A stretch of 64,000 nucleotides of DNA from Nitrospirota bacterium (GTDB lineage Bacteria; Nitrospirota; Nitrospiria; Nitrospirales; Nitrospiraceae). This document shows, piece by piece, positions 9,069-29,792 of this stretch. How positions within the stretch are numbered: position 1 is the stretch's first letter; every line of letters begins with the position of its first letter. Position numbers and translations under genes: made by a program. A model generated the notes under the pieces. It was not told where the DNA came from, searched no databases, and saw only the letters and a program-made list of their open reading frames with translations. The stretch is taken from NCBI GenBank assembly GCA_040755395.1, contig JBFMAX010000001.1:1-64000 (forward strand), written 5' to 3'.

Positions 9069-9422
9069 TCACCGAGTCAGCGACCGGACATAGGCGAGCA
9101 CGTTTCGGCTCTCCTCCTCCGACAACCGCAATTTCCACGACGGCATGTTCGGTTTGCCTTCGTGCAGCGTCTTCAGCAGTTCTTCGTCGGATTTGCCCTT
9201 GGTCGACGGCGAGGTGAGGTTCGCCGGCTCCGGACCGAGCAGCCGGTAGCCGTCACCTCTGCCTTGCGGACCGTGACATCCTGCGCAATGCCGCTGATAC
9301 AACGCCTTGCCCCTTGCCAGGTCGCGGGCCGGCGAGCCGGTCTCAGCCGACGCGCCGATCCCGCCCATGATCCCCAGATTCCAGAGCGTCGCCGCCACCC
9401 CCATCAGCCACGCACTCTTCAT
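9069..9422 (-). CDS. small periplasmic cytochrome c
   Basis: 117 residues with a signal peptide (about 1-26) and one CAGCH haem c site. Downstream lie the sixth-ligand region MPSWK and the class I ending ILAYVRSL-like (NVLAYVRSLTR). It is a soluble electron carrier or a subunit-like cytochrome. The ATG overlaps the TGA of the upstream decayed cusA (ATGA), so it may have been translated by coupling to that operon. It also has its own GAGGTGACG site. Confidence 0.88.
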   Translation of the reverse strand: MKSAWLMGVAATLWNLGIMGGIGASAETGSPARDLARGKALYQRHCAGCHGPQGRGDGYRLLGPEPANLTSPSTKGKSDEELLKTLHEGKPNMPSWKLRLSEEESRNVLAYVRSLTR

Positions 9423-10531
9423 CGCGTCACCTCTTCCGAAACCACCTCCGACATGTCGTCCGCAAACAGCTTCTCCTCGGCGGCAGGAGCCTTCGGCCGA
9501 TCGCCGGGCTCCTCGAACCAGCGGTACAGCGCGGGCAGCACGACCAACGTGAGCAACGTCGAGGTGAAAAGCCCGCTGATCACCACCGTCGCCAGCGGCC
9601 GCTGGATTTCCGCCCCGATGCCCTGCGAAACCGCAAGCGGCAGAAGCCCGAGCAGCGTCGTCATCATCGTCATCGTGACCGGGCGGAGCCGCAACGTGCA
9701 GCCGGCGATGATCGCCTGGTCCGTCGGCCGCCCTTCGCCCCGGAGCTGATTGACATAGGATACCAGCACGATCCCGTTCCCCACCGCAAGACCGAACAAT
9801 TCGATGAAGCCGATGGACGCCGGCACGCTCAGGTACTGGCCGGTGAGCCACAGTGAGACGACCCCGCCGATCAGCGCGAAGGGAAGATTGAGCATGATCA
9901 GGATCGCGTACCTCCACGAATGGAAAGCGACGAACAACAGGAAGAGAATCAGGCCCAGGGCGATCGGGACCACGATCATCAAGCGGGCATTGGCCCGCTC
10001 CATGTTCTCAAAGGCGCCTCCCCACGTCACAACGTAGCCTTGCGGCAACCGCAGCTCCGTCGCCAGCTTCCGGCGCCCTTCATCCACCACACTCCCGATG
10101 TCGCGATCCACCACATTGAACCCGATATAAATGCGGCGGCGCACCTGTTCGCGGCTAATGCGCGCCGGTCATTCCCGCATCTCGATGGTCGCCAGCTCGC
10201 TCAAAGGGATCGGCGCACCGGTGGCGGCCTTGACTCGAATCTCTCCGATGGCCCCGACGCTGTTGCGATACACTTCCGGAAATCTGAGGATGAGCTGAAA
10301 CTTGATCGCGCATTCGGTCCTGATGCCGGAGATCAGTTCATCGACGCGTTCCTGGATCGGTTGGCTCATGAGGACCGAAATACCGGGAATATCGGCCAGC
10401 CGCCGGCGAATCGCGTCCACGAGACCCGATTTGGTCTTGGCGGTGGTCCAGGTCTCTCGCGGACGCAGCAAGACGACCGGGTCGCTTTCGTTCGGCTCTT
10501 CCGGCGCGTTGGCGATCTCAGAGCAGCTCAA
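9419..10531 (-). pseudogene. decayed CusA/CzcA-type RND efflux pump
   Basis: The first 120 codons give the porter-domain sequence IANAPEEPNESDPVVLLRP and RRRLADIPGISVLMSQPIQER. An in-frame TGA at 10169-10171 interrupts it; the same frame then resumes (ISREQVRRRIYIGFNVVDRD) through the last five membrane helices to 9419. The first half of the pump is absent, and about 75 residues are missing after ECAIKF, where the normal sequence continues before LILRFPE. Full-length family members have about 1,030-1,060 residues. An intact homologue is at 13993-17175. Confidence 0.85.
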
Positions 10532-11084
10532 GCCGGTTCCTGGCTTCGCGCGCCTCTGCGCAAGCCGTTCTCAACTCCGCTTCGCGTTTCTGAAACTCGG
10601 CAAGGCTGACCGCCCGGTGCTGGTAAAGATCATGAGTTCGTTCATAGACCAGTTCCGCTTCGTGTAGTTTCGCCGTCGCCTTGAGATACGTCGCCTCGGC
10701 CAAACCGAGCTCCGTACTGTGGAGCAGGGCCAGCAGCTCGCCTTTCTTGACGTCCTGGCCGAAGTCCACATACACCTTCACCACGCGCCCGCGAATCAGG
10801 GTGGTGACATCGGCCAGTTCGTTTTCATTGGGCTGTACCGTGGCGGGAAACTCCCGGTACAACCGGAATTCGCCGCGGGTCACGGGGTGGACCTCGATCC
10901 CCGCCCGCACGATCTCGTCAAGTTTCAGGCGCAAAATGCCCGAGGGTGCGGCGGCCGGAGCGGGCTTCGCGCCGGAAGCCTCGTCTCCCTCTCTGCCGCA
11001 ACCCGGCGGGCCGACCAGACACATCAGCAGGACGACCGCGCAGAATTGCCGGAGTGAGCGCGTAAGACGACCCGGCGGCGTCAT
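10518..11084 (-). pseudogene. truncated CusB-type periplasmic adaptor
   Basis: The start ATG at 11084 gives a lipoprotein signal (LVGPPGC), then the adaptor's barrel and lipoyl parts (VKVYVDFGQDVKKGELLALL) and part of the coiled-coil hairpin. The frame stops at ARNRLELL, about half the usual 400 residues. The sequence passes within some ten bases into the middle of cusA in another frame, so one deletion appears to have removed the second half of cusB and the first half of cusA. Confidence 0.82.
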
Positions 11085-11751
11085 CGCTTCTTCACGGCGG
11101 TGCACAAGTACGGCTTCACCATCTCCCAGGAATCTGTGGTGTTCACGGGAAACTCGGAGATCGGACAAAAGAAGGGCGGAACCGCACGCCACAACCGCAC
11201 CGACGCCCCTCACCAGGCCTATGCAGACAAGGCACTGCTCCCACTCTCGTTGCGTCCGGCAAAGGTCATAATTACCCACGAGTGACCGAGGCAAGCCTAA
11301 TGCCAGCCTAGGCCGTTGGAACGAGGCAATTTCTTAAAGGATCTTGCAGCGGCGACAAGACGCTTCAGACGGCACAGTGGCAGAAAGGGGCAGCTTCATT
11401 GGAACCCCAGGCCCAAAACACCCCGTGCCGCGGCCTGAACCGCGGGGATGGTAGTCGTCTCCCACGGTAATCGGGTAACCATCGAGGCACGAGATAAATT
11501 TCTTCACTATAGAGATAGGCGCAGGATCGGTCTGCCGATCTTGCACTTGGTAACGGTAGCCTGAATCCTTGGGCGAGCCACCATTCTCCCTTTTCTTTCA
11601 TTTCGCATCGGACGCTGTGAACGGCGGAATGAGCAGACGTGGAAAGAAGAACAACTGGCCACGTTGGAGAGAGGCCAAAGAAGCAGCATCCCGCAATAAA
11701 GGATGCCGTGCGCCCAGTCCACTGTTACAGGATACACCTCGAATATAAGGG
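11085..11751. other. non-coding or degraded stretch bordering the low-GC island
   Basis: Only short, poorly composed open frames are present and none has a motif. Base composition falls from the GC-rich background towards about half G+C going right. It may be debris of the missing outer-membrane gene of the decayed cus operon or of the island's insertion, but nothing recognisable remains. Confidence 0.4.
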
Positions 11752-12417
11752 CTACTTATAGTTTGCTCGGAAGCTGTTTAAGAAGCTTGTTATTCGATCA
11801 AAAGCTGAATGATCAAGCGGTATTAAGGTTTCCGGACGGCTCCAGGCCCATTTCAAAGGCGTATATGGATCACTCTTGCACGCGGCAGACAAGAAGCAAC
11901 GCATTTGCAGTTTAGATAACTTCGATTTCGGCCAAGATTCCGCATTCGTACAACGAACGAAATCCTCAACACATGGTCTAAGGCTAAACCACTTGTCGAG
12001 GGCTGCCCCCAGGCAAAGCGTTTCCAGATTGCCAGGTTGGTCCGCTTCAGGAAGTAAGACTACTGCGATGTCCGGCGATCCACCGCGCGTAGCAATTGTA
12101 AAAGGCCGGTCAGGAACCGGGTAGGTCTCAGCTGATTCAATTTGTTCTCTAAGCTTTGCGAACGCACTGCCTGCATCGTCATCGCTGTCGGTCACAATGA
12201 CTATGCCGGAGATCTTTTCGAAGCCCTCAAGGACCCTAAGGGCGACGAGTAATTGGCCAAAACCTTTCTTGCCTCCAGTGTCCGACTCTGGTTTTCCAGG
12301 GAAAGCGACTTGAAAACCGTTCAAATTTCTTTGTTCTACGAGATGCCGAAAAAATGCTTCGTCATCTTCTCCTTCTCCGACAATCAAACATGGACCAACT
12401 AACGGCCTTGGAACCAA
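11752..12417 (-). CDS. TOPRIM-fold nuclease-like protein (DUF3226/OLD type)
   Basis: 221 residues starting at a TTG (12417), ten bases after the ATPase stop codon and preceded by AGGTAGGG. The TOPRIM acidic signature is visible: the glutamate in LIVGEGEDDEAF near residue 15 and the DxD of IVIVTDSDDD near 72-76. That layout fits DUF3226-like or OLD-type TOPRIM domains, which cleave nucleic acid with metal ions. Paired with the upstream ABC-type ATPase it resembles two-gene anti-phage modules (PARIS, split OLD). G+C is clearly lower than in flanking genes. The fold is well supported; the exact family and the defence role are inferred. Confidence 0.72.
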   Translation of the reverse strand: MVPRPLVGPCLIVGEGEDDEAFFRHLVEQRNLNGFQVAFPGKPESDTGGKKGFGQLLVALRVLEGFEKISGIVIVTDSDDDAGSAFAKLREQIESAETYPVPDRPFTIATRGGSPDIAVVLLPEADQPGNLETLCLGAALDKWFSLRPCVEDFVRCTNAESWPKSKLSKLQMRCFLSAACKSDPYTPLKWAWSRPETLIPLDHSAFDRITSFLNSFRANYK

Positions 12418-12427
12418 AAGATGATCC

Positions 12428-13483
12428 CTACCTCACTTCGAGATCCTGATCCATTGCGCTACGAAGCTCCTTTCCGCTAAACATTCTGATATTGCAGCGA
12501 TCATCTTGTCTCTCAGCTCTTAAGAGTCTGAAGTCATCCTGATTCTCTTTAAGCAACGGTGACAGTGCTCTGAGGCAATCCAAGCTGTGAGTTGAGGCAA
12601 TCAATTGAACATCGTAGTCCTTTGCGAAAGTAAAGAGAGAAGACCAGATAGTAGACAATCTGTCGTAGTAAAAGCCATTTTCGATCTCGTCCACGTAAAC
12701 AACTCCATGAGGGTTGCTCGCAATGGCTAACAGTAGACTCACAAACTTGTTGATTCCACCGGAAACCAGCGTTAGCGGCAGCCTTCGACTTATCGAAGGC
12801 GCCACCAATCTTGCGTATACCATAGGCGAGCCAGAATCTATCTCGACGGATAATCCCTGAATATAGGGGAATTCTCTGTTGAGAGCCTTGACCAATTCGC
12901 CTTCTTTCCCTTGTTTGCTAAGCTCTGAAAAATGAGCAGCGTTTTCCTCGGCATTCGGATTATGGAACGAAGCAAATAGGGAACCAGGGAGCGGATCGAT
13001 GAACTGGCCGACGTTCAGACCTCGCGGTGTCAATGCGGGTTTAACCTCAAAGGTTTTGCCTCCGCTTATTGTCCATTCCATCCTGATGGGTGTGATGACT
13101 GACATATCATCCCTCTTCTCCAGGATGGGAATAGTCAAGGATTCCTCGGATCTATAATAGATCTTCAAGGACCTGTCCGCTCCGTGAGTTCCGGACGTCC
13201 TAATGGATATCTGTCGATTTTGGTCAAATGCGTAAAATAGGTCTCGCCACAAGGACTCGTAGAATCTTCTTTCGTAAGTGATCTTCAGAACATCTCCAAA
13301 ACCCCTCCATCCGCGCAAGCGCAAGAAGACCTCGGCAGATCCTGCAGCCACAAGAAAAAGAGACTCCAGGAAAGCAGTTTTACCGGTGGCGTTTTTCCCG
13401 ACCAGTAAGTTAATTCTGCTCAGACCATCAAGGTTCAATTTCTCAAAACACCTAAAATTTTGAATTTCGATTGTGCTGATCAT
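12428..13483 (-). CDS. ABC/AAA-type ATPase of a putative defence module
   Basis: 351 residues beginning MISTIEIQNFRCFEKLNL, the usual start of RecF/OLD-like ATPases. Walker A is GKNATGKT (about 29-36). An ABC-like signature TLVSGGINKF is followed by Walker B VVYVDEIENG and the switch histidine in LIASTHSLDC. It has no nuclease domain of its own; the downstream TOPRIM gene would supply one. Both genes have lower G+C than neighbours and lie between a decayed and an intact cus operon, suggesting lateral arrival. The ribosome site before the ATG is weak. Confidence 0.85.
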   Translation of the reverse strand: MISTIEIQNFRCFEKLNLDGLSRINLLVGKNATGKTAFLESLFLVAAGSAEVFLRLRGWRGFGDVLKITYERRFYESLWRDLFYAFDQNRQISIRTSGTHGADRSLKIYYRSEESLTIPILEKRDDMSVITPIRMEWTISGGKTFEVKPALTPRGLNVGQFIDPLPGSLFASFHNPNAEENAAHFSELSKQGKEGELVKALNREFPYIQGLSVEIDSGSPMVYARLVAPSISRRLPLTLVSGGINKFVSLLLAIASNPHGVVYVDEIENGFYYDRLSTIWSSLFTFAKDYDVQLIASTHSLDCLRALSPLLKENQDDFRLLRAERQDDRCNIRMFSGKELRSAMDQDLEVR

Positions 13484-13992
13484 CTAGACAATGTGCTGAG
13501 ATTCCTTGCACACCTCCCTAACTAGCGCTGCATAATACGTTACCGGATGTTTTTTGTCACGCTGTGAAGTGTGCCCCAACTGGCTTGGTTGCTTCCGCTG
13601 GGTGCATCATCGACCCCTTTATATTCTTCCCACTGCATTCGAACTGTAATGGGTACCTGGCACAGTCTTAGATGTTACCTTCAAACTTGTTGTTTTCTCC
13701 GCGTGTATTGGAGCTTGCATCAAAGCCGTCTTGTGCTCCGGCGTATCACGTCCAGGCGGCTGGGCTGGAATTCCTGCCGCACATCGCCGTAGTGGGCGGG
13801 ACACAACTTGTCGCAGCATGCGGCCCTTGCTTCCGAACAGCAAGGGCGAAGCCTGTACTGTTTGAGGCCGCTGCGGCCGAGTTTACAGGATTCGAGCAGG
13901 CAAGGCTTAGTTGGGTGCCCCCGGAGGCGTCTTCAGCGGCAGAATTCCGGCCCAGCCACCGTTCCCACTCCAAACGGCCAGGGACCCATTGC
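13484..13992. other. intergenic, no gene recognised
   Basis: About 500 bases between the ATPase start and the cusA stop. Open frames on both strands lack ribosome sites and sensible composition. Composition returns to GC-rich towards 13700. It may hold the island boundary and the promoter of the ATPase-TOPRIM pair, but I see no clear -35/-10 pair. Confidence 0.4.
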
Positions 13993-16900
13993 CTAACTGG
14001 GCTTCGTGCAACGGGTGTGAGCGGAGGCAGTCAGTCCATCGCTCTTCCCCTCGCGTCCCGTCTCTTTGTCCTTCCGCCACCGCCACGTCACATACACCGC
14101 CGGGATCACGAACAGGGTCAGGATCATCGCTGAAAGTACCCCGCCCACCTGCGGAGCCGCGACCCGCTTCATCACGTCCGCCCCAGTCCCCGTCGCCAGC
14201 ATGACGGGGACCAGGCCCAGCACGTCCACCAAGCCGATCATCGCCATGGGCCGGATGCGTTCCACCGCGCCGCGCTGGACGGTTTCCAAGAGATCGTCCA
14301 GGGTTTTCAACCCGCCCGCCGCCTTGCGGCGGGCGCAGGCCTCGTCCAAATAAGCCAGCATCACCGCGCTCGTTTCGGCCGCGGTGCCGACGACGGTGAT
14401 GATCCCGACCCAGACCGCGATGCTCATGTTGTACTCCAGCGCAGCCAGGTACCAGATCGCGCCGACCAGCGCGAGCGGCACGCCCAGCATGACCATCAGC
14501 GTTTCGGCAACGGACTGGAACGTGAGATAGAAGACCACGAAGATGATCAACAAGGTCAGCGGGACCACGACCGCCAGCCGTTCCCGCACCCGTTGCATGA
14601 ACTCATACTGTCCGGACCAGGCGATCGTGTAGCCCGGCGGCAGCTCGATTTTCCCCTGCACAGCGCGCTTGAGGTCCTCCACATACCCACCGACGTCCCG
14701 CCCGGCCATATCGACGTACACGTAGGCCGCGAGGCGGCCGTTCTCGTCGCGGATCATCGGGGGCCCGCTCACGAAGCGCAGCGCGGCGAGTTGCGCGAGC
14801 GGCACCTGGATGCCCGCCGGTGTCGTGACAAGGACCCGCTTGAGCTTCTCCGGATCGTCGCGCAGCTCCCGCAGGTAACGGACGTTGATCGGATAGCGCT
14901 CGCGCCCTTCGATCGTGGTTGCGATATTCTCCCCGCCGATGGCGGACTCGATGATCCGCCCCACGTCCATCACCTTCAGACCGTAGCGCGCAATGTCCTC
15001 GCGGTTGATCTCGAAATCCAGGAAGTATCCGCCGGTGACCCGCTCGGCGTACACGCTGCGGGTCCCCGGCACCTCCTTCGCGACCATTTCCACATGTCGC
15101 CCGATCCGTTCGATCTCCTTGAGGTCTGAACCGAAGATCTTGATGCCGACCGGCGTCCTGATGCCGGTGGTCAGCATGTCCACCCGGTTCTTGATCGGCA
15201 TCGTCCACGCGTTGGTCACCCCTGGGAACTGCAATGCTCGGTCCATCTCGTCGATCAGGCCTTCATAGCTGAGGCCTGGCCGCCACTGCGCTTTCGGCTT
15301 CAACATGACGACCGCTTCGATCATGCTGAACGGCGCCGGATCGGTGGATGTCTCGGCCCGTCCGGCTTTGCCGAAGACCCGCTCCACCTCGGGGAACGCC
15401 TTGAGCTTCTGGTCCATCAGTTGGAGGAGTCGGCCGGCTTCGGTCACCGAGAGGCCGGGCAGCGTCGTCGGCATGTAGAGGATCGTCCCTTCGTACAGGG
15501 GCGGCATGAACTCGGAGCCGAGTCGCTGAAACGCGGGAACCGTTCCCGCCAACAGCGCCAGAGCCGCCAACACCACCAGGCCGCGGTGGCGCAAACAGCC
15601 CCTGAGGGCCGGCGAGTACAGCCGCTGCAGCAGCCGGCTCACCGGATGGCGCCGCTCCGGAAGAATCCGGCCCCGCATGGCGCCCGGGAGCACCGCCGGT
15701 ACGAACGTGATCGCGAGCACCGCGCAAGCCGCGATGGCGAGATTGTTCGTCCAGGCCAGGGGCCGGAACAGCCGGCCTTCCTGCTCCTGCAGCGTGAAGA
15801 TCGGGATGAAGGAGATCGCGATCACCACCACCGACGCGAACGTCGCCGGCCCGACTTCCTTTGCCGAGTCGATCAGGACTTTGGCGCGGTCTCCTTGCCG
15901 GCCTGCTTGCTCCCATTCCTCCAACCGCTTGTGCGCGTTGTCCACCATCACGATCGCGGCGTCCACCATGTCTCCGATCGCCACGATGATCCCGCCCAAC
16001 GACATGATGTGGACGCCGATGTTCATCAGGTACATCGGCACGAACGCGATCAGCACGGCCAGCGGCAAGGTCAGGATCGGGACGGCGGCCGATCGGACGT
16101 GAAGGAGGAACAGGACGATCAGGGCGCCGGTCACGATCAATTCTTCCGCCAGGCTTTCGTACGCCGTGGCGATGGATTCTTCGATCAATCCGCTCCGATC
16201 GTAGGCGGTCACGACCTTGACGCCCTTCGGGAACGACGGTTCCAGCTCCTTGAGCTTGGCCTTGACGCGCTCGATGACGCTCAGCGCGTTCTCGCCGAAG
16301 CGCATGACGACGATGCCGCCGACCGCTTCCCCGATCCCGTCCATTTCGGCCAGCCCCCGCCGCATGTCCGGGCCGAGACGGACCGTCGCGACATCACGGA
16401 GCAGGATCGGCGTCCCGCTCTCGCTCACCCCGACGGCGATCTTCTCGATGTCACTGACGGCCTTGATATACCCGCGGCCCCGGATCATGTACTCGATTCC
16501 CGAGAACTCCACAACCCGGCCGCCCACATCGTTGTTGCTTTCCCGGATCGTTTCGATGATCGCCGGGATGGACAGCCGATAGGCCAGCACCTTGGTGGGA
16601 TCGAGGTTGACTTGGTATTGCCGGACGAAGCCGCCCACGCTCGCCACCTCGGCCACGCCCTCGACCGCGCGAAGCCAGTAGCGCAGATACCAATCCTGGA
16701 AGCTGCGGAGCGAGGCTAGGTCGTGCTGCCCCGACTCGTCCACGAGCGCGTACTGGAACACCCACCCGACGCCGGTCGCGTCGGGGCCGAGTTGCGGCGC
16801 GACCCCTTCGGGCAGGCGCCCTTCGAGCTGGCTCAGATACTCCAACACGCGGGATCTCGCCCAGTAGATGTCCGTGCCGTCCTTGAAGAGCACATATACA

Positions 16901-17175
16901 TAGGAAAACCCGAAGTCCGAGAGCCCGCGCACTACCGTGACCTTCGGCGCGGACAGCAAGGCGGTCACGATCGGATAGGTGATCTGGTCCTCCACGAGAT
17001 CGGGCGAGCGTCCCGGCCACGTCGTGTAGACGATCACCTGGGTATCGGACAGATCCGGCAGGGCATCCACCGGCGTCTGCCGCACGGCCCACAGTCCGGC
17101 CGCCGCGGCAAAGAACACCAGCAGCAGGACGAAGAACCGGTTCTTCGCGCTGAACTCGATGATGCGTTCAACCAT
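13993..17175 (-). CDS. cusA: CusA-type heavy-metal RND efflux pump
   Basis: About 1,060 residues, full length for the HME-RND family. The proton-relay helix reads AIGDMVDAAIVMVDNAHK, close to the Cu+/Ag+ CusA form rather than the divalent CzcA form. The porter domain starts after QTPVDALPDLSDTQV and the C terminus has a full set of membrane helices. Driven by protons, it would export Cu+ or Ag+ through CusB and CusC. The start at 17175 (MVERIIEF) fits the family; the ATG at 17190 lies inside a heptad array. It is the last gene of cusCBA. Confidence 0.93.
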   Translation of the reverse strand: MVERIIEFSAKNRFFVLLLVFFAAAAGLWAVRQTPVDALPDLSDTQVIVYTTWPGRSPDLVEDQITYPIVTALLSAPKVTVVRGLSDFGFSYVYVLFKDGTDIYWARSRVLEYLSQLEGRLPEGVAPQLGPDATGVGWVFQYALVDESGQHDLASLRSFQDWYLRYWLRAVEGVAEVASVGGFVRQYQVNLDPTKVLAYRLSIPAIIETIRESNNDVGGRVVEFSGIEYMIRGRGYIKAVSDIEKIAVGVSESGTPILLRDVATVRLGPDMRRGLAEMDGIGEAVGGIVVMRFGENALSVIERVKAKLKELEPSFPKGVKVVTAYDRSGLIEESIATAYESLAEELIVTGALIVLFLLHVRSAAVPILTLPLAVLIAFVPMYLMNIGVHIMSLGGIIVAIGDMVDAAIVMVDNAHKRLEEWEQAGRQGDRAKVLIDSAKEVGPATFASVVVIAISFIPIFTLQEQEGRLFRPLAWTNNLAIAACAVLAITFVPAVLPGAMRGRILPERRHPVSRLLQRLYSPALRGCLRHRGLVVLAALALLAGTVPAFQRLGSEFMPPLYEGTILYMPTTLPGLSVTEAGRLLQLMDQKLKAFPEVERVFGKAGRAETSTDPAPFSMIEAVVMLKPKAQWRPGLSYEGLIDEMDRALQFPGVTNAWTMPIKNRVDMLTTGIRTPVGIKIFGSDLKEIERIGRHVEMVAKEVPGTRSVYAERVTGGYFLDFEINREDIARYGLKVMDVGRIIESAIGGENIATTIEGRERYPINVRYLRELRDDPEKLKRVLVTTPAGIQVPLAQLAALRFVSGPPMIRDENGRLAAYVYVDMAGRDVGGYVEDLKRAVQGKIELPPGYTIAWSGQYEFMQRVRERLAVVVPLTLLIIFVVFYLTFQSVAETLMVMLGVPLALVGAIWYLAALEYNMSIAVWVGIITVVGTAAETSAVMLAYLDEACARRKAAGGLKTLDDLLETVQRGAVERIRPMAMIGLVDVLGLVPVMLATGTGADVMKRVAAPQVGGVLSAMILTLFVIPAVYVTWRWRKDKETGREGKSDGLTASAHTRCTKPS

Positions 17176-17184
17176 CGTCAAACA

Positions 17185-17284
17185 CGTCATGCGTCATGCG
17201 CGACACGTTATGCATCATGAGTGACAGAACCGGGTATTTCTTGTCCTCTCCACGCTTCGCGCATCACGTCTCACGCATCACGTC
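17185..17284. repeat. 7-base-period array between cusB and cusA (array 4)
   Basis: Six heptads from 17185 (CGTCATG twice, CGCGACA, CGTTATG) and four from 17253 (CGCTTCG, CGCATCA twice, CGTCTCA) fill most of the gap between the two genes. The array covers the region where a cusA ribosome site would be expected. Confidence 0.6.
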
Positions 17285-18487
17285 CTATTTCATTCCCGGC
17301 ATCCCGGCCATCCCGCCGACGGCGGCTTTCAACTGACTCTCGGAATCGATCAGAAAGTTCGCCGAGGTCACGACATGGTCACCTTCCTTGAGCCCCTGCA
17401 CCACTTCGACCCAGTCGCCGGCCCGCTCCCCGAGCTTCACGGTTCGCCACTCCAGCTTGCCGCCGCCGTGATGGATGAAAATAATCTGGCGTTCGCCGGA
17501 TTCCAGCACCGCATCCCTGGGAATCGCCAGCCGGGTCCCGAGCGGGATCTTCAGCTCCACATTGGCGTACATATCAGGCTTGAGCCGCTCGCCTGGATTG
17601 TCGACCTCGAACCGGACTCTGGCCGTTCGCGTCTTCGGATCCAGCGTCGGATAGATGAATCCCACGTGACCGTGCAGCTTCGTCTGCGGGTCATAGGACA
17701 GCGTGACCATGGCGCCCTGCCCGATTCTGATGGAGGGAAGTTCGTACTCGTAGATGTCGGCCATGATCCAGATCTGCGAGAGATCGGCGATGAAATACAG
17801 CTCCGTCCCGGGCGTGACGTACGTGCCGGCCCTGGCCTGCATGCGGATGACCGTGCCGGTGATGGGCGAATGAATCGGCAGCGTCCGGAGCACCCGGCCG
17901 GTGCGCTCAAGATCGCGGATATGGTCCTCCGTGATATCCCAGAGCTGGAACCGCCGCTTGGTGGCCTCCAGCAGTTCTTTGGCCCCGCGGGCGACCTCGG
18001 GAAACTCGCTCCCGCCGAGTTCGCGGTAACTCTGCAACGCCAGCAGGTATTCCTCCTGAGTCGCGACCAGGTCCGGACTGTAGATCGTAAAGAGGATCTC
18101 CCCTTTCTTGACGTGGTCCCCGACCGCGCTGACCCGGAGATCCTCGATCCAGCCGTCGAACTTGATGTTGACCCGAGCAAGCCGGCGCTCGTCGATCTCG
18201 ACCCGCCCCACCGTCCGAATCGCTTTCTCGAGCGGCCGCCGCGCGGCTTCCTGGAACCGCACCCCGATCGTCTGCAACCGCTCCGGGGCGATCGTCACGG
18301 TGTTGCGTTCCGCAACCGGCGTGGACGGCGCCGCCGGCGCGCCGGCGTGCGGCGCCCCTTCGCGGGGTATCGTCTCATGCGGCTTCGCCGGCGCACCCGG
18401 CGGTTCCTGCGTCAGGAACCAATAGCCCGCCGCCAGCCCTGCCGCCAGCAACGCAAACGCCCCTGTGATGACGATCATGCGCTTCAC
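17285..18487 (-). CDS. cusB: CusB-type periplasmic adaptor
   Basis: 400 residues: one N-terminal membrane anchor (about 5-26), a Pro/Ala/His-rich linker with APHAGAPAA, then the adaptor core. VSAVGDHVKKGEILFTIYSPDL marks the lipoyl-like half and IYEYELPSIRIGQ the barrel. The C-terminal tail GGMAGMPGMK contributes clustered methionines, which suit Cu+/Ag+ handling. It connects CusA in the inner membrane to CusC in the outer membrane. Gaps to the neighbouring genes are filled by heptad arrays. Confidence 0.92.
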   Translation of the reverse strand: MKRMIVITGAFALLAAGLAAGYWFLTQEPPGAPAKPHETIPREGAPHAGAPAAPSTPVAERNTVTIAPERLQTIGVRFQEAARRPLEKAIRTVGRVEIDERRLARVNIKFDGWIEDLRVSAVGDHVKKGEILFTIYSPDLVATQEEYLLALQSYRELGGSEFPEVARGAKELLEATKRRFQLWDITEDHIRDLERTGRVLRTLPIHSPITGTVIRMQARAGTYVTPGTELYFIADLSQIWIMADIYEYELPSIRIGQGAMVTLSYDPQTKLHGHVGFIYPTLDPKTRTARVRFEVDNPGERLKPDMYANVELKIPLGTRLAIPRDAVLESGERQIIFIHHGGGKLEWRTVKLGERAGDWVEVVQGLKEGDHVVTSANFLIDSESQLKAAVGGMAGMPGMK

Positions 18488-27933: not shown

Positions 27934-28404
27934 TTACTTGTACTTCTCAATGACCGCCGCAAGCTCCGCCGGCGTCATCCGCCCGTACAGATCGCCGTCA
28001 ATGATGACGGAGGGCGAGACCGCGCAGTTGCCGACGCAATAGACGTTCTCCAATGTGAAACGGCCGTCCGGCGTCGTTTCTCCGACCCCGACCTGCAATC
28101 GGTCGCGCAACTGACAGAGCACCCGTGCGCTGCGGTTCGCAAGGCAAGATTCGCCCATGCAGACGCGGATGAGATGGCGCCCCGTGGTCCTGACGCGCAA
28201 ATCAGGGTAATAGGAGAGTACGCCGGCCACATCCGCTTCCGTCACCTGCAGCGCATGGGCGATCTCTCCGACGGCGTTCGGGGGCACATGCCCCAGCCTT
28301 TCCTGTACTACGAGCAAGGTCTGCAGTACGTTCGCCCGGTCCGGCCGCTGCGGCCGGCACCTATCGAGAATCTCGGCCAGGAGCGACGCCTGCTCGTCCT
28401 TCAT
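27934..28404 (-). CDS. fdsG: formate dehydrogenase, NuoE-like 2Fe-2S subunit
   Basis: 156 residues from the ATG at 28404. The thioredoxin-like 2Fe-2S ligands are in RVCMGESCLANRSA and YCVGNCAVSP, the four-cysteine pattern of NuoE/HoxE/FdsG. The family length is normal. With FdsB it forms the NAD+-reducing part of the formate dehydrogenase. The start overlaps the stop of the upstream hypothetical gene (ATGA), implying translational coupling. Confidence 0.92.
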   Translation of the reverse strand: MKDEQASLLAEILDRCRPQRPDRANVLQTLLVVQERLGHVPPNAVGEIAHALQVTEADVAGVLSYYPDLRVRTTGRHLIRVCMGESCLANRSARVLCQLRDRLQVGVGETTPDGRFTLENVYCVGNCAVSPSVIIDGDLYGRMTPAELAAVIEKYK

Positions 28405-29792
28405 CGCACCACCTCTTCGATCCCGACATGGGCGCGGAGCCTGTTGTAGTCGAATGCCGGCCGACCCGTTCGCCGCCGGCCGATGTCGTTCCGTTCCATC
28501 TCGTCGATGAGCGCCGCGACCTTGTCGCGCGCCGCGGGAGACGCCGCCGCGTGGCGAGGCGTCTGCCCGCCGAGCGCGGGCGACTCCTGATCGGCCCATT
28601 CGAGGTATGTGGTCTCCAAAAAGGAGGCCAGCAGCGCCCGATCTTCTTCCGGGGTAATCACGAGAGACACCGGCTTCTCTGCGGCGAGATCCGACACAGA
28701 GGGCCGACGACCCGGCGGAGTCGTGGACTCTCCTCGAAACCGGAGCGCATACCCGAACGCGTACGCCATCCGGTGTTTGATCTCTTCCAAGCGATCGCGC
28801 AAGTCGCACTCGACCATCAGTTGGGTCGGTGTCAACGTCAGCCTGGCTATGACGCCGGTTCGTCCATTAGTCCCATCCCCGCGCTGCACCCAGGTACGCA
28901 CCTGACGTGTTCCCCATCCAGGCCCGTCCTCGAGCTGCAGGATGGCCTCCAGCTCCAGCCCCTCCATCGCCGCCAAGCCGTCCGCCAGAAACCGATACTC
29001 ATGATGCTCGTAGAACGCGATGGCGTAGAGATAGGGCTGGCCGTCGGGCGTGCAATAGCGGATGTTCGTCACCGCCTGAAGCAACGCGGCGAAACGCATC
29101 CTCGCGAAGTTCCAAAGGAGGACGTAGCCGTAGAGCTTGGCGAACTCCGTCCATTCACCGAGCGCGAAGGACCCGGAGGCGGCCTCCATGGCAAGCCGCT
29201 GTTCGTGGGTGAGTTGGTAGAGGCTTTGAGCGTCGGATGCGCTCAGCACGATGGCGCTCCCGGGAATGACCGCGCGATCGGTGTCGGGATCGCCCGGTTC
29301 ACGGATGAGCCTCGTGAACAGGATCTGCCCGGCCGCCAGCCCCTTGGCGAACTCGCCGCCGGTGACGCGGAATACCTGACTGTCGCCGACCGAACGCACG
29401 GCGAACATCCCGCTCGGAGGGCCGACCTCAGCGGGCATCACCTCCAAGAGATCCATATACGAATGCTTCAACGGGTCCAACCAGGCGCGCTCCTCGTCGG
29501 GCACGTGCTCCGTAATCGTGTCCCGGAGTTGCTCGATCAGACTCAACTGCCCTTCGGGGTAGAAGTCTGCGTAGACATACAGATTCGCCAGTTCCACCTC
29601 TTGCGCCAGAGGCGCGAGGGGCGTCGCCGCGCCCGCTTCCAGATACGGTCTGAGCGCCTGCTCCAGCGCCGCCTTTCGTTGTCCCGCGAATCCCGGCTCC
29701 AACGACAAGGCTTCGAGGCGCGCCAGGACCGCCTCCAGGGACGGCTTCATCGGCGCCCACAGGCCGGCCGTCTGTTCATTCGCGAGCTTCAT
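28401..29792 (-). CDS. unknown protein coupled to fdsG
   Basis: 463 residues, soluble, with no signal or membrane segment. The C terminus has a segment ALGGQTPRHAAASPAARDKV that resembles the MbcA/ParS-like tail found in some SEC-C and toxin-antitoxin proteins; the rest is not recognised. It shares an ATGA overlap with fdsG and itself overlaps the upstream DUF2934 gene by 17 bases, so the three are likely made together. A role in formate dehydrogenase assembly or regulation is possible only by position. Confidence 0.75.
   Translation of the reverse strand: MKLANEQTAGLWAPMKPSLEAVLARLEALSLEPGFAGQRKAALEQALRPYLEAGAATPLAPLAQEVELANLYVYADFYPEGQLSLIEQLRDTITEHVPDEERAWLDPLKHSYMDLLEVMPAEVGPPSGMFAVRSVGDSQVFRVTGGEFAKGLAAGQILFTRLIREPGDPDTDRAVIPGSAIVLSASDAQSLYQLTHEQRLAMEAASGSFALGEWTEFAKLYGYVLLWNFARMRFAALLQAVTNIRYCTPDGQPYLYAIAFYEHHEYRFLADGLAAMEGLELEAILQLEDGPGWGTRQVRTWVQRGDGTNGRTGVIARLTLTPTQLMVECDLRDRLEEIKHRMAYAFGYALRFRGESTTPPGRRPSVSDLAAEKPVSLVITPEEDRALLASFLETTYLEWADQESPALGGQTPRHAAASPAARDKVAALIDEMERNDIGRRRTGRPAFDYNRLRAHVGIEEVVR

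Follow-up and report, generated by a model that had tools for sequence, protein, structure and literature searches.

A pair of adjacent genes in the window (the whole stretch of 64,000 nucleotides from a Nitrospirota bacterium that was analysed) is likely to be a phage-defence module of two genes that was gained laterally and is of the AbiL / PDC-M38 kind, belonging to the DUF3226 branch and most likely acting through abortive infection. The pair consists of the following parts:

12428..13483, minus strand: ATPase gene (351 aa), an SMC/RecF/OLD-type ABC ATPase of the AbiLi / PDC-M38A type
12418..12427, minus strand: intergenic spacer of 10 nt, with a GGGA stretch resembling a ribosome site 5' of the TTG start
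11752..12417, minus strand: TOPRIM gene (221 aa), DUF3226, PDC-M38B type

Both open reading frames are read on the minus strand, the ATPase gene from an ATG at 13483 to its stop at 12428 and, after it on the same strand, the TOPRIM gene from a TTG at 12417 to its stop at 11752. The original prediction of an OLD/RecF-type ATPase and a separate TOPRIM protein ten bases apart is thus borne out by the reading frames and the spacer. As the ATPase stop codon and the GGGA stretch lie just before the TTG, coupled translation of a two-gene operon is suggested by the sequence. The open reading frames are real and not chance occurrences, because both proteins have Pfam matches (ATPase: AAA_15, 1.7e-17, and AAA_21, 2.4e-13; TOPRIM protein: DUF3226, 4.6e-17, 63 bits against a cut-off of 27) and because an intact relative exists in a second genus of the family. 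In this nearest relative (genome G036, locus L004) the ATPase is 72% and the TOPRIM protein 50% identical, and gene order and TTG start are the same, with a spacer of 9 nt. Synonymous sites between the two pairs are saturated while dN is 0.20 for the ATPase and 0.42 for the TOPRIM protein, and both proteins therefore appear to be under purifying selection. No second copy of the pair was found in the bacterium's own genome, where the other ATPase match (L002) belongs to the family only distantly and no adjoining TOPRIM gene was found.

In order to place the pair among known systems, both proteins were compared with the PADLOC models, with matches read by E-value and bit score (PADLOC's own score cut-offs are not part of the output). 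AbiLi (PDLC02336) ranked first for the ATPase at 1.6e-52, aligning residues 1-351 to positions 1-340 of the 340 in the profile, followed by PDC-M38A (PDLC04611) at 5.1e-40. AriA of PARIS scored well below both (1.8e-19) and was covered only in part. The TOPRIM protein matched PDC-M38B (PDLC04623; 1.6e-9, 35.9 bits), and DUF4435, AriB and AbiLii gave zero matches to it at E<=1 in PADLOC and Pfam. The HMM check proposed in the original prediction thus returned defence-type models (AbiLi, PDC-M38A/B) and left the PARIS nuclease model unmatched. The view that the TOPRIM protein is closer to DUF3226 than to DUF4435 was confirmed, while the suggestion of a distinct subtype of PARIS or split OLD did not hold, given how far the AbiLi and PDC-M38A models outscore AriA.

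Each of the known systems shares part of this build. PDC-M38, a PADLOC candidate, likewise has an ATPase gene followed by a DUF3226-type TOPRIM gene, and both window proteins match its models. The window TOPRIM is divergent from it, however, as seen in the low score to PDC-M38B and in 63 bits to DUF3226, where other DUF3226 members of the phylum reach about 180 bits, and the window ATPase is placed in a separate clade of 17 rows with full support. AbiL of Lactococcus lactis also comprises two genes and its AbiLi is matched over the full length, but the window nuclease is not AbiLii; the latter, related to RloB, is the protein through which AbiL brings about abortive infection (PMC10440598). 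PARIS likewise encodes its ABC ATPase and TOPRIM protein separately and resembles the pair in fold, whereas its AriA, at 464 aa in the solved structure, is larger than the window ATPase. A PARIS subtype was considered and ruled out on the PADLOC ranking and the missing AriB/DUF4435 match. OLD and GajA have the same type of ATPase and the same TOPRIM metal site, but are single fused proteins, in contrast to the window, where a stop codon separates two open reading frames (about 350 and 220 aa). No helicase gene was found among the window neighbours. We hardly doubt that the pair is a PDC-M38-like paired module. It is a somewhat divergent member of an architecture catalogued by PADLOC and not a new kind of system; since the PDC-M38 category already covers this architecture, the pair is an added member of a known, hardly studied kind. 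PDC-M38 itself is only a candidate defence category. Neither DUF3226 nor PDC-M38 is mentioned in the literature searched, which is weak evidence of absence as most subscription journals lie outside it.

Public genomes were searched with the ATPase alignment alone, and the best 80 loci were fetched; the TOPRIM alignment was too divergent to serve as query, and a search of phages, plasmids and viral contigs with the single TOPRIM protein gave zero matches. In 72 of the 80 genome loci a DUF3226-type TOPRIM gene lies on the same strand at -200 to +25 nt of the ATPase gene. The remaining eight comprise two with the TOPRIM gene slightly further on and six without one, of which one is a contig end. 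Tight pairs were likewise present in 16/29 IMG/VR loci. The distances among the ATPases and among the TOPRIM proteins correlate (r=0.81, 97 pairs), a value reached in 0/2000 permutations (maximum 0.12), and the two proteins almost certainly work together. At E<=1e-20, all relative ATPases (62/62) match both the AbiLi and the PDC-M38A model. Of the TOPRIM relatives, 58/59 match DUF3226 and 48/59 the same PDC-M38B model as the window protein, with 12/59 matching OLD-like_TOPRIM and 3/59, weakly, AbiLii.

DUF3226 pairs occur in bacteria and archaea, on plasmids and on viral contigs, with carriers in about 20 named phyla (21 groups), archaea included. The window pair belongs to the 17-row ATPase clade (SH-aLRT 100), together with representatives from Acidobacteriota, Magnetococcales, alphaproteobacteria and viral contigs. 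A conserved third gene was not found: 111 Pfam families were recorded over 107 neighbours and none occurred in more than four, and the unit is therefore one of two genes. Defence genes were present without being dominant in about 50 sampled neighbourhoods, so that the neighbourhoods give modest support by association. Most frequent among the sampled neighbours was an IS1595-type transposase family (4/107), a member of which lies directly upstream of the second-nearest relative pair (L052:4331-4975). ATPase genes without a TOPRIM gene were observed at L023-L027 (viral), L086, L094, L098 and L103. In one of them, a viral contig of the same clade (L027:3928-6079), a transposase-like gene stands 98 nt downstream, at the place where the TOPRIM gene is expected.

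Lateral gain of the pair is supported by its low GC content, its presence in few close genomes and its differing sites, and anticipated in the original prediction from composition and a scarred location. Its GC content is 47.4% as compared with 63.1% for the window, in which the lowest other 1.7-kb stretch has 59.9%, and GC3 amounts to 0.45-0.52, the genes used for comparison having 0.72-0.87. In ten relatives of the 17-row clade that were checked, as well as in L004, each pair lies about 6-20 GC points below its flank, and the AT-richness therefore travels with the module. A close match to the TOPRIM protein was found in 2/61 near-relative genomes, i.e., in one besides its own, and DUF3226 exceeds its cut-off in 8/295 genomes of the phylum, where an ATPase of the same type is directly upstream. 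The surroundings of the pair in G036 are quite unlike those in the window, which indicates that the module has moved. That a relative pair is carried on plasmids of about 4 kb is a further sign of mobility. A search for terminal or direct repeats bounding the pair as a transposable unit gave just short pairs at chance level.

This distribution also bears on the reading of the two genes as a housekeeping DNA-repair pair related to RecF and SMC. A generic RecF match of the ATPase (6.6e-12) and its SMC- and Rad50-like fold (see below) would be in line with such a role, yet 45.2 bits to the curated RecF model are far below the cut-off of 172. Low GC content and differing sites likewise speak against it, and as the patchy distribution in the genomes sampled refutes a housekeeping function, we consider this reading extremely improbable.

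The surroundings of the pair in the window show the scars that had been predicted. The pair sits between an intact CusA-CusB-type pump operon (13993-18487) and the broken remains of another at 9419-11294 on the minus strand, which are split into pieces at 9419-10144, 10169-10531 and 10518-11294. The CusA-like remnants match profile positions 605-676 and 812-1020 only, and the piece at 10518-11294 is a truncated CusB-like protein. Elsewhere in the same genome (contig C8, about 28390-28805; L181), an integron-integrase-like gene lies in two pieces and is apparently broken; the pieces match positions 1-65 and 236-314 of the integron-integrase model, below its cut-off.

A second feature of this region stands 292 nt upstream of the pair:

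13775-13941, minus strand: structured element of about 166 nt, in the interval from the CusA stop codon to the start of the ATPase gene

The secondary structure of the element has strong support. Across 15 copies, 27 of 51 base pairs are altered on both sides in a compensatory manner, and 93.9% of cells pair as compared with 35-39% when the partners are slid, in an alignment that was itself fitted to the covariance model and in which many copies are orthologous sites. By covariance model the element occurs in 48/175 genomes of the same family, with one to three copies each, and in none of 24 sampled genomes from other families of the order. The element has no match in Rfam, and no RNA family matched near the pair at E<=1. 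A same-strand open reading frame of at least 100 aa ends within 130 nt 5' of the element in 26/33 loci; often the distance is 14-16 nt and the frame looks, by sequence and not by model search, like a monothiol glutaredoxin gene. On the 3' side, which in the window is occupied by the ATPase-TOPRIM pair, several loci carry Phd, ParE, PIN, DUF433-DUF5615, Gp49, CopG antitoxin or HSDR_N_2 genes, a list of raw neighbours. The element is a candidate for a new structured 3' RNA or a recombination site, or else may act as a terminator. We also entertain, as a speculative and rather unlikely extension, that the 17-row clade and its divergent DUF3226 nuclease make up a branch of AbiL/PDC-M38 that differs in function and has its own trigger and substrate, and that the pair was delivered to a site 3' of a gene that is marked by this family-specific element and also gathers toxin-antitoxin and restriction genes.

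The residues expected of an ATP-driven switch and of a metal-dependent nuclease are present in the two proteins. All lie on the minus strand:

13376..13399, minus strand: Walker A GKNATGKT of the ATPase (residues 29-36), with G29 and K35 unchanged throughout 62 relatives
12746..12766, minus strand: ABC-signature-like VSGGINK (residues 240-246), G243 nearly invariant in 62 relatives
12686..12703, minus strand: Walker B VVYVDE (residues 261-266), with D265 and E266 unchanged throughout 62 relatives
12584..12598, minus strand: ASTHS with switch histidine H299, invariant in 62 relatives
12431..12439, minus strand: C-terminal E349-V-R351 of the ATPase, with E349 and R351 almost always kept among 62 relatives
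12373..12375, minus strand: TOPRIM catalytic glutamate E15, kept in 97/98 relatives
12181..12189, minus strand: TOPRIM motif D77-S-D79, D77 in 98/98 and D/E79 in 88/98 relatives
12022..12024, minus strand: E132 of GxLE (G129-x-L-E132), probable second metal ligand, 98/100
11911..11913, minus strand: K169, probable active-site lysine, 96/100

The predicted ABC signature and the E...DxD set of the TOPRIM protein are thus both present and conserved, and the AbiLi and PDC-M38A profile matches run to the last profile position at the C-terminal E349-V-R351. The active site of OLD from B. pseudomallei consists of E400, E404, D455, D457, E508 and K562 (PMC6755086), to which E15, D19, D77, D79, E132 and K169 of the TOPRIM protein correspond in this order, an equivalence based on motif order and shared fold. 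Judged from these residues, the TOPRIM protein carries an intact OLD-type two-metal site and is predicted to be a nuclease. The same site is common to RNase M5 and AriB (PMC6755086, PMC12409363) and therefore does not distinguish between DNA and RNA as the substrate.

Structure prediction, suggested as a check in the original prediction and run protein by protein with AlphaFold2, yielded confident models for the TOPRIM protein (pLDDT 93.6) and the ATPase (pLDDT 93.8). The best fold match of the TOPRIM model is PH0156 of Pyrococcus horikoshii (PDB 2p62; Z 12.0, 187 aligned), which is also the top profile match by sequence among solved structures, yet is only 16% identical and was deposited as a hypothetical protein. 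OLD nuclease domains are next (Z 8.2-9.2; 6nk8, Z 9.2), and AriB (8ux9_A) follows with Z 7.1 over 169 aligned residues. Unrelated folds score up to Z 8.4 in the same list, so that the AriB match alone would be weak. The ATPase model matches the heads of SMC, Rad50, GajA, PtuA and AriA at Z 17-20 (AriA, Z 17.3), which in the model reflects the general fold class.

The rank of the OLD DNA-nuclease domains, the counterparts of the OLD metal ligands and lysine in the window TOPRIM and the OLD-like_TOPRIM matches among its relatives are all consistent with an OLD-like direct defence, in which an ATPase-gated TOPRIM protein would nick or degrade phage or plasmid DNA and the death of the cell would not be needed. 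Because RNase M5 and AriB share the site, these observations are not specific for DNA, and the separate-gene relatives tested so far, AriB and the TOPRIM_OLD toxins, are toxins or tRNases. We regard direct attack on DNA as possible, albeit less probable than abortive infection.

For the abortive-infection module that we favour, a defence role as such seems probable. In PARIS, AriA keeps AriB inactive until it senses a phage protein and then sets AriB free to act as a tRNase (PMC12409363), and in E. coli TOPRIM_OLD toxins are neutralised by paired AAA proteins and show toxin-antitoxin behaviour (PMC10440598). Given this division of labour in AriA/AriB, AAA/TOPRIM_OLD and AbiL, together with the intact sites of both window proteins, we favour a model in which the ATPase senses and restrains while the TOPRIM protein kills. 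We posit that a homo-oligomer of the ATPase would hold the TOPRIM protein inactive and would sense a phage product or an infection-linked change, upon which an ATP-dependent rearrangement would free or activate the TOPRIM protein as a Mg2+-dependent nuclease. The target of the nuclease would be a nucleic acid on which host and phage both depend. By the example of AriB this would most likely be host tRNA, and its cleavage would halt translation before phage release. On this analogy RNA or tRNA is slightly preferred over DNA as the main substrate; AriB is the one precedent for tRNA, whereas the related TOPRIM domains of OLD and GajA cut DNA. Phage or toxicity data for any DUF3226 pair were not found in the literature searched.

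The E. coli toxins also lend themselves to another reading, in which the two genes are a plain addiction pair: the TOPRIM protein would be a toxin and the ATPase its neutraliser, stabilising a mobile element, with an anti-phage effect being incidental or absent. A distant relative pair on 4.2-kb ColRNAI plasmids of Klebsiella (L008:1953-3700) makes up most of their coding sequence and is their main cargo. An ATPase match was found in 132 Klebsiella plasmid records, and a distant relative pair is also present on a Plesiomonas plasmid. The toxin-antitoxin genes that adjoin several copies of the structured element point in the same direction. The antitoxin, however, would be a large ATPase whose catalytic site is fully intact, which fits sensing better, and the closest characterized pairs, AbiL and PARIS, defend against phage. 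We therefore hold a pure addiction function to be unlikely, noting that it is not exclusive of abortive infection; both it and the attack on DNA are compatible with the sequence evidence.

By itself, this pair does not establish a new kind of immunity. As a probable abortive-infection module of the AbiL / PDC-M38 kind, it makes testable whether tRNA is also cut by split ATPase-TOPRIM systems other than PARIS, a test for which the high-confidence models of both proteins and the conserved active-site residues listed above are assets.
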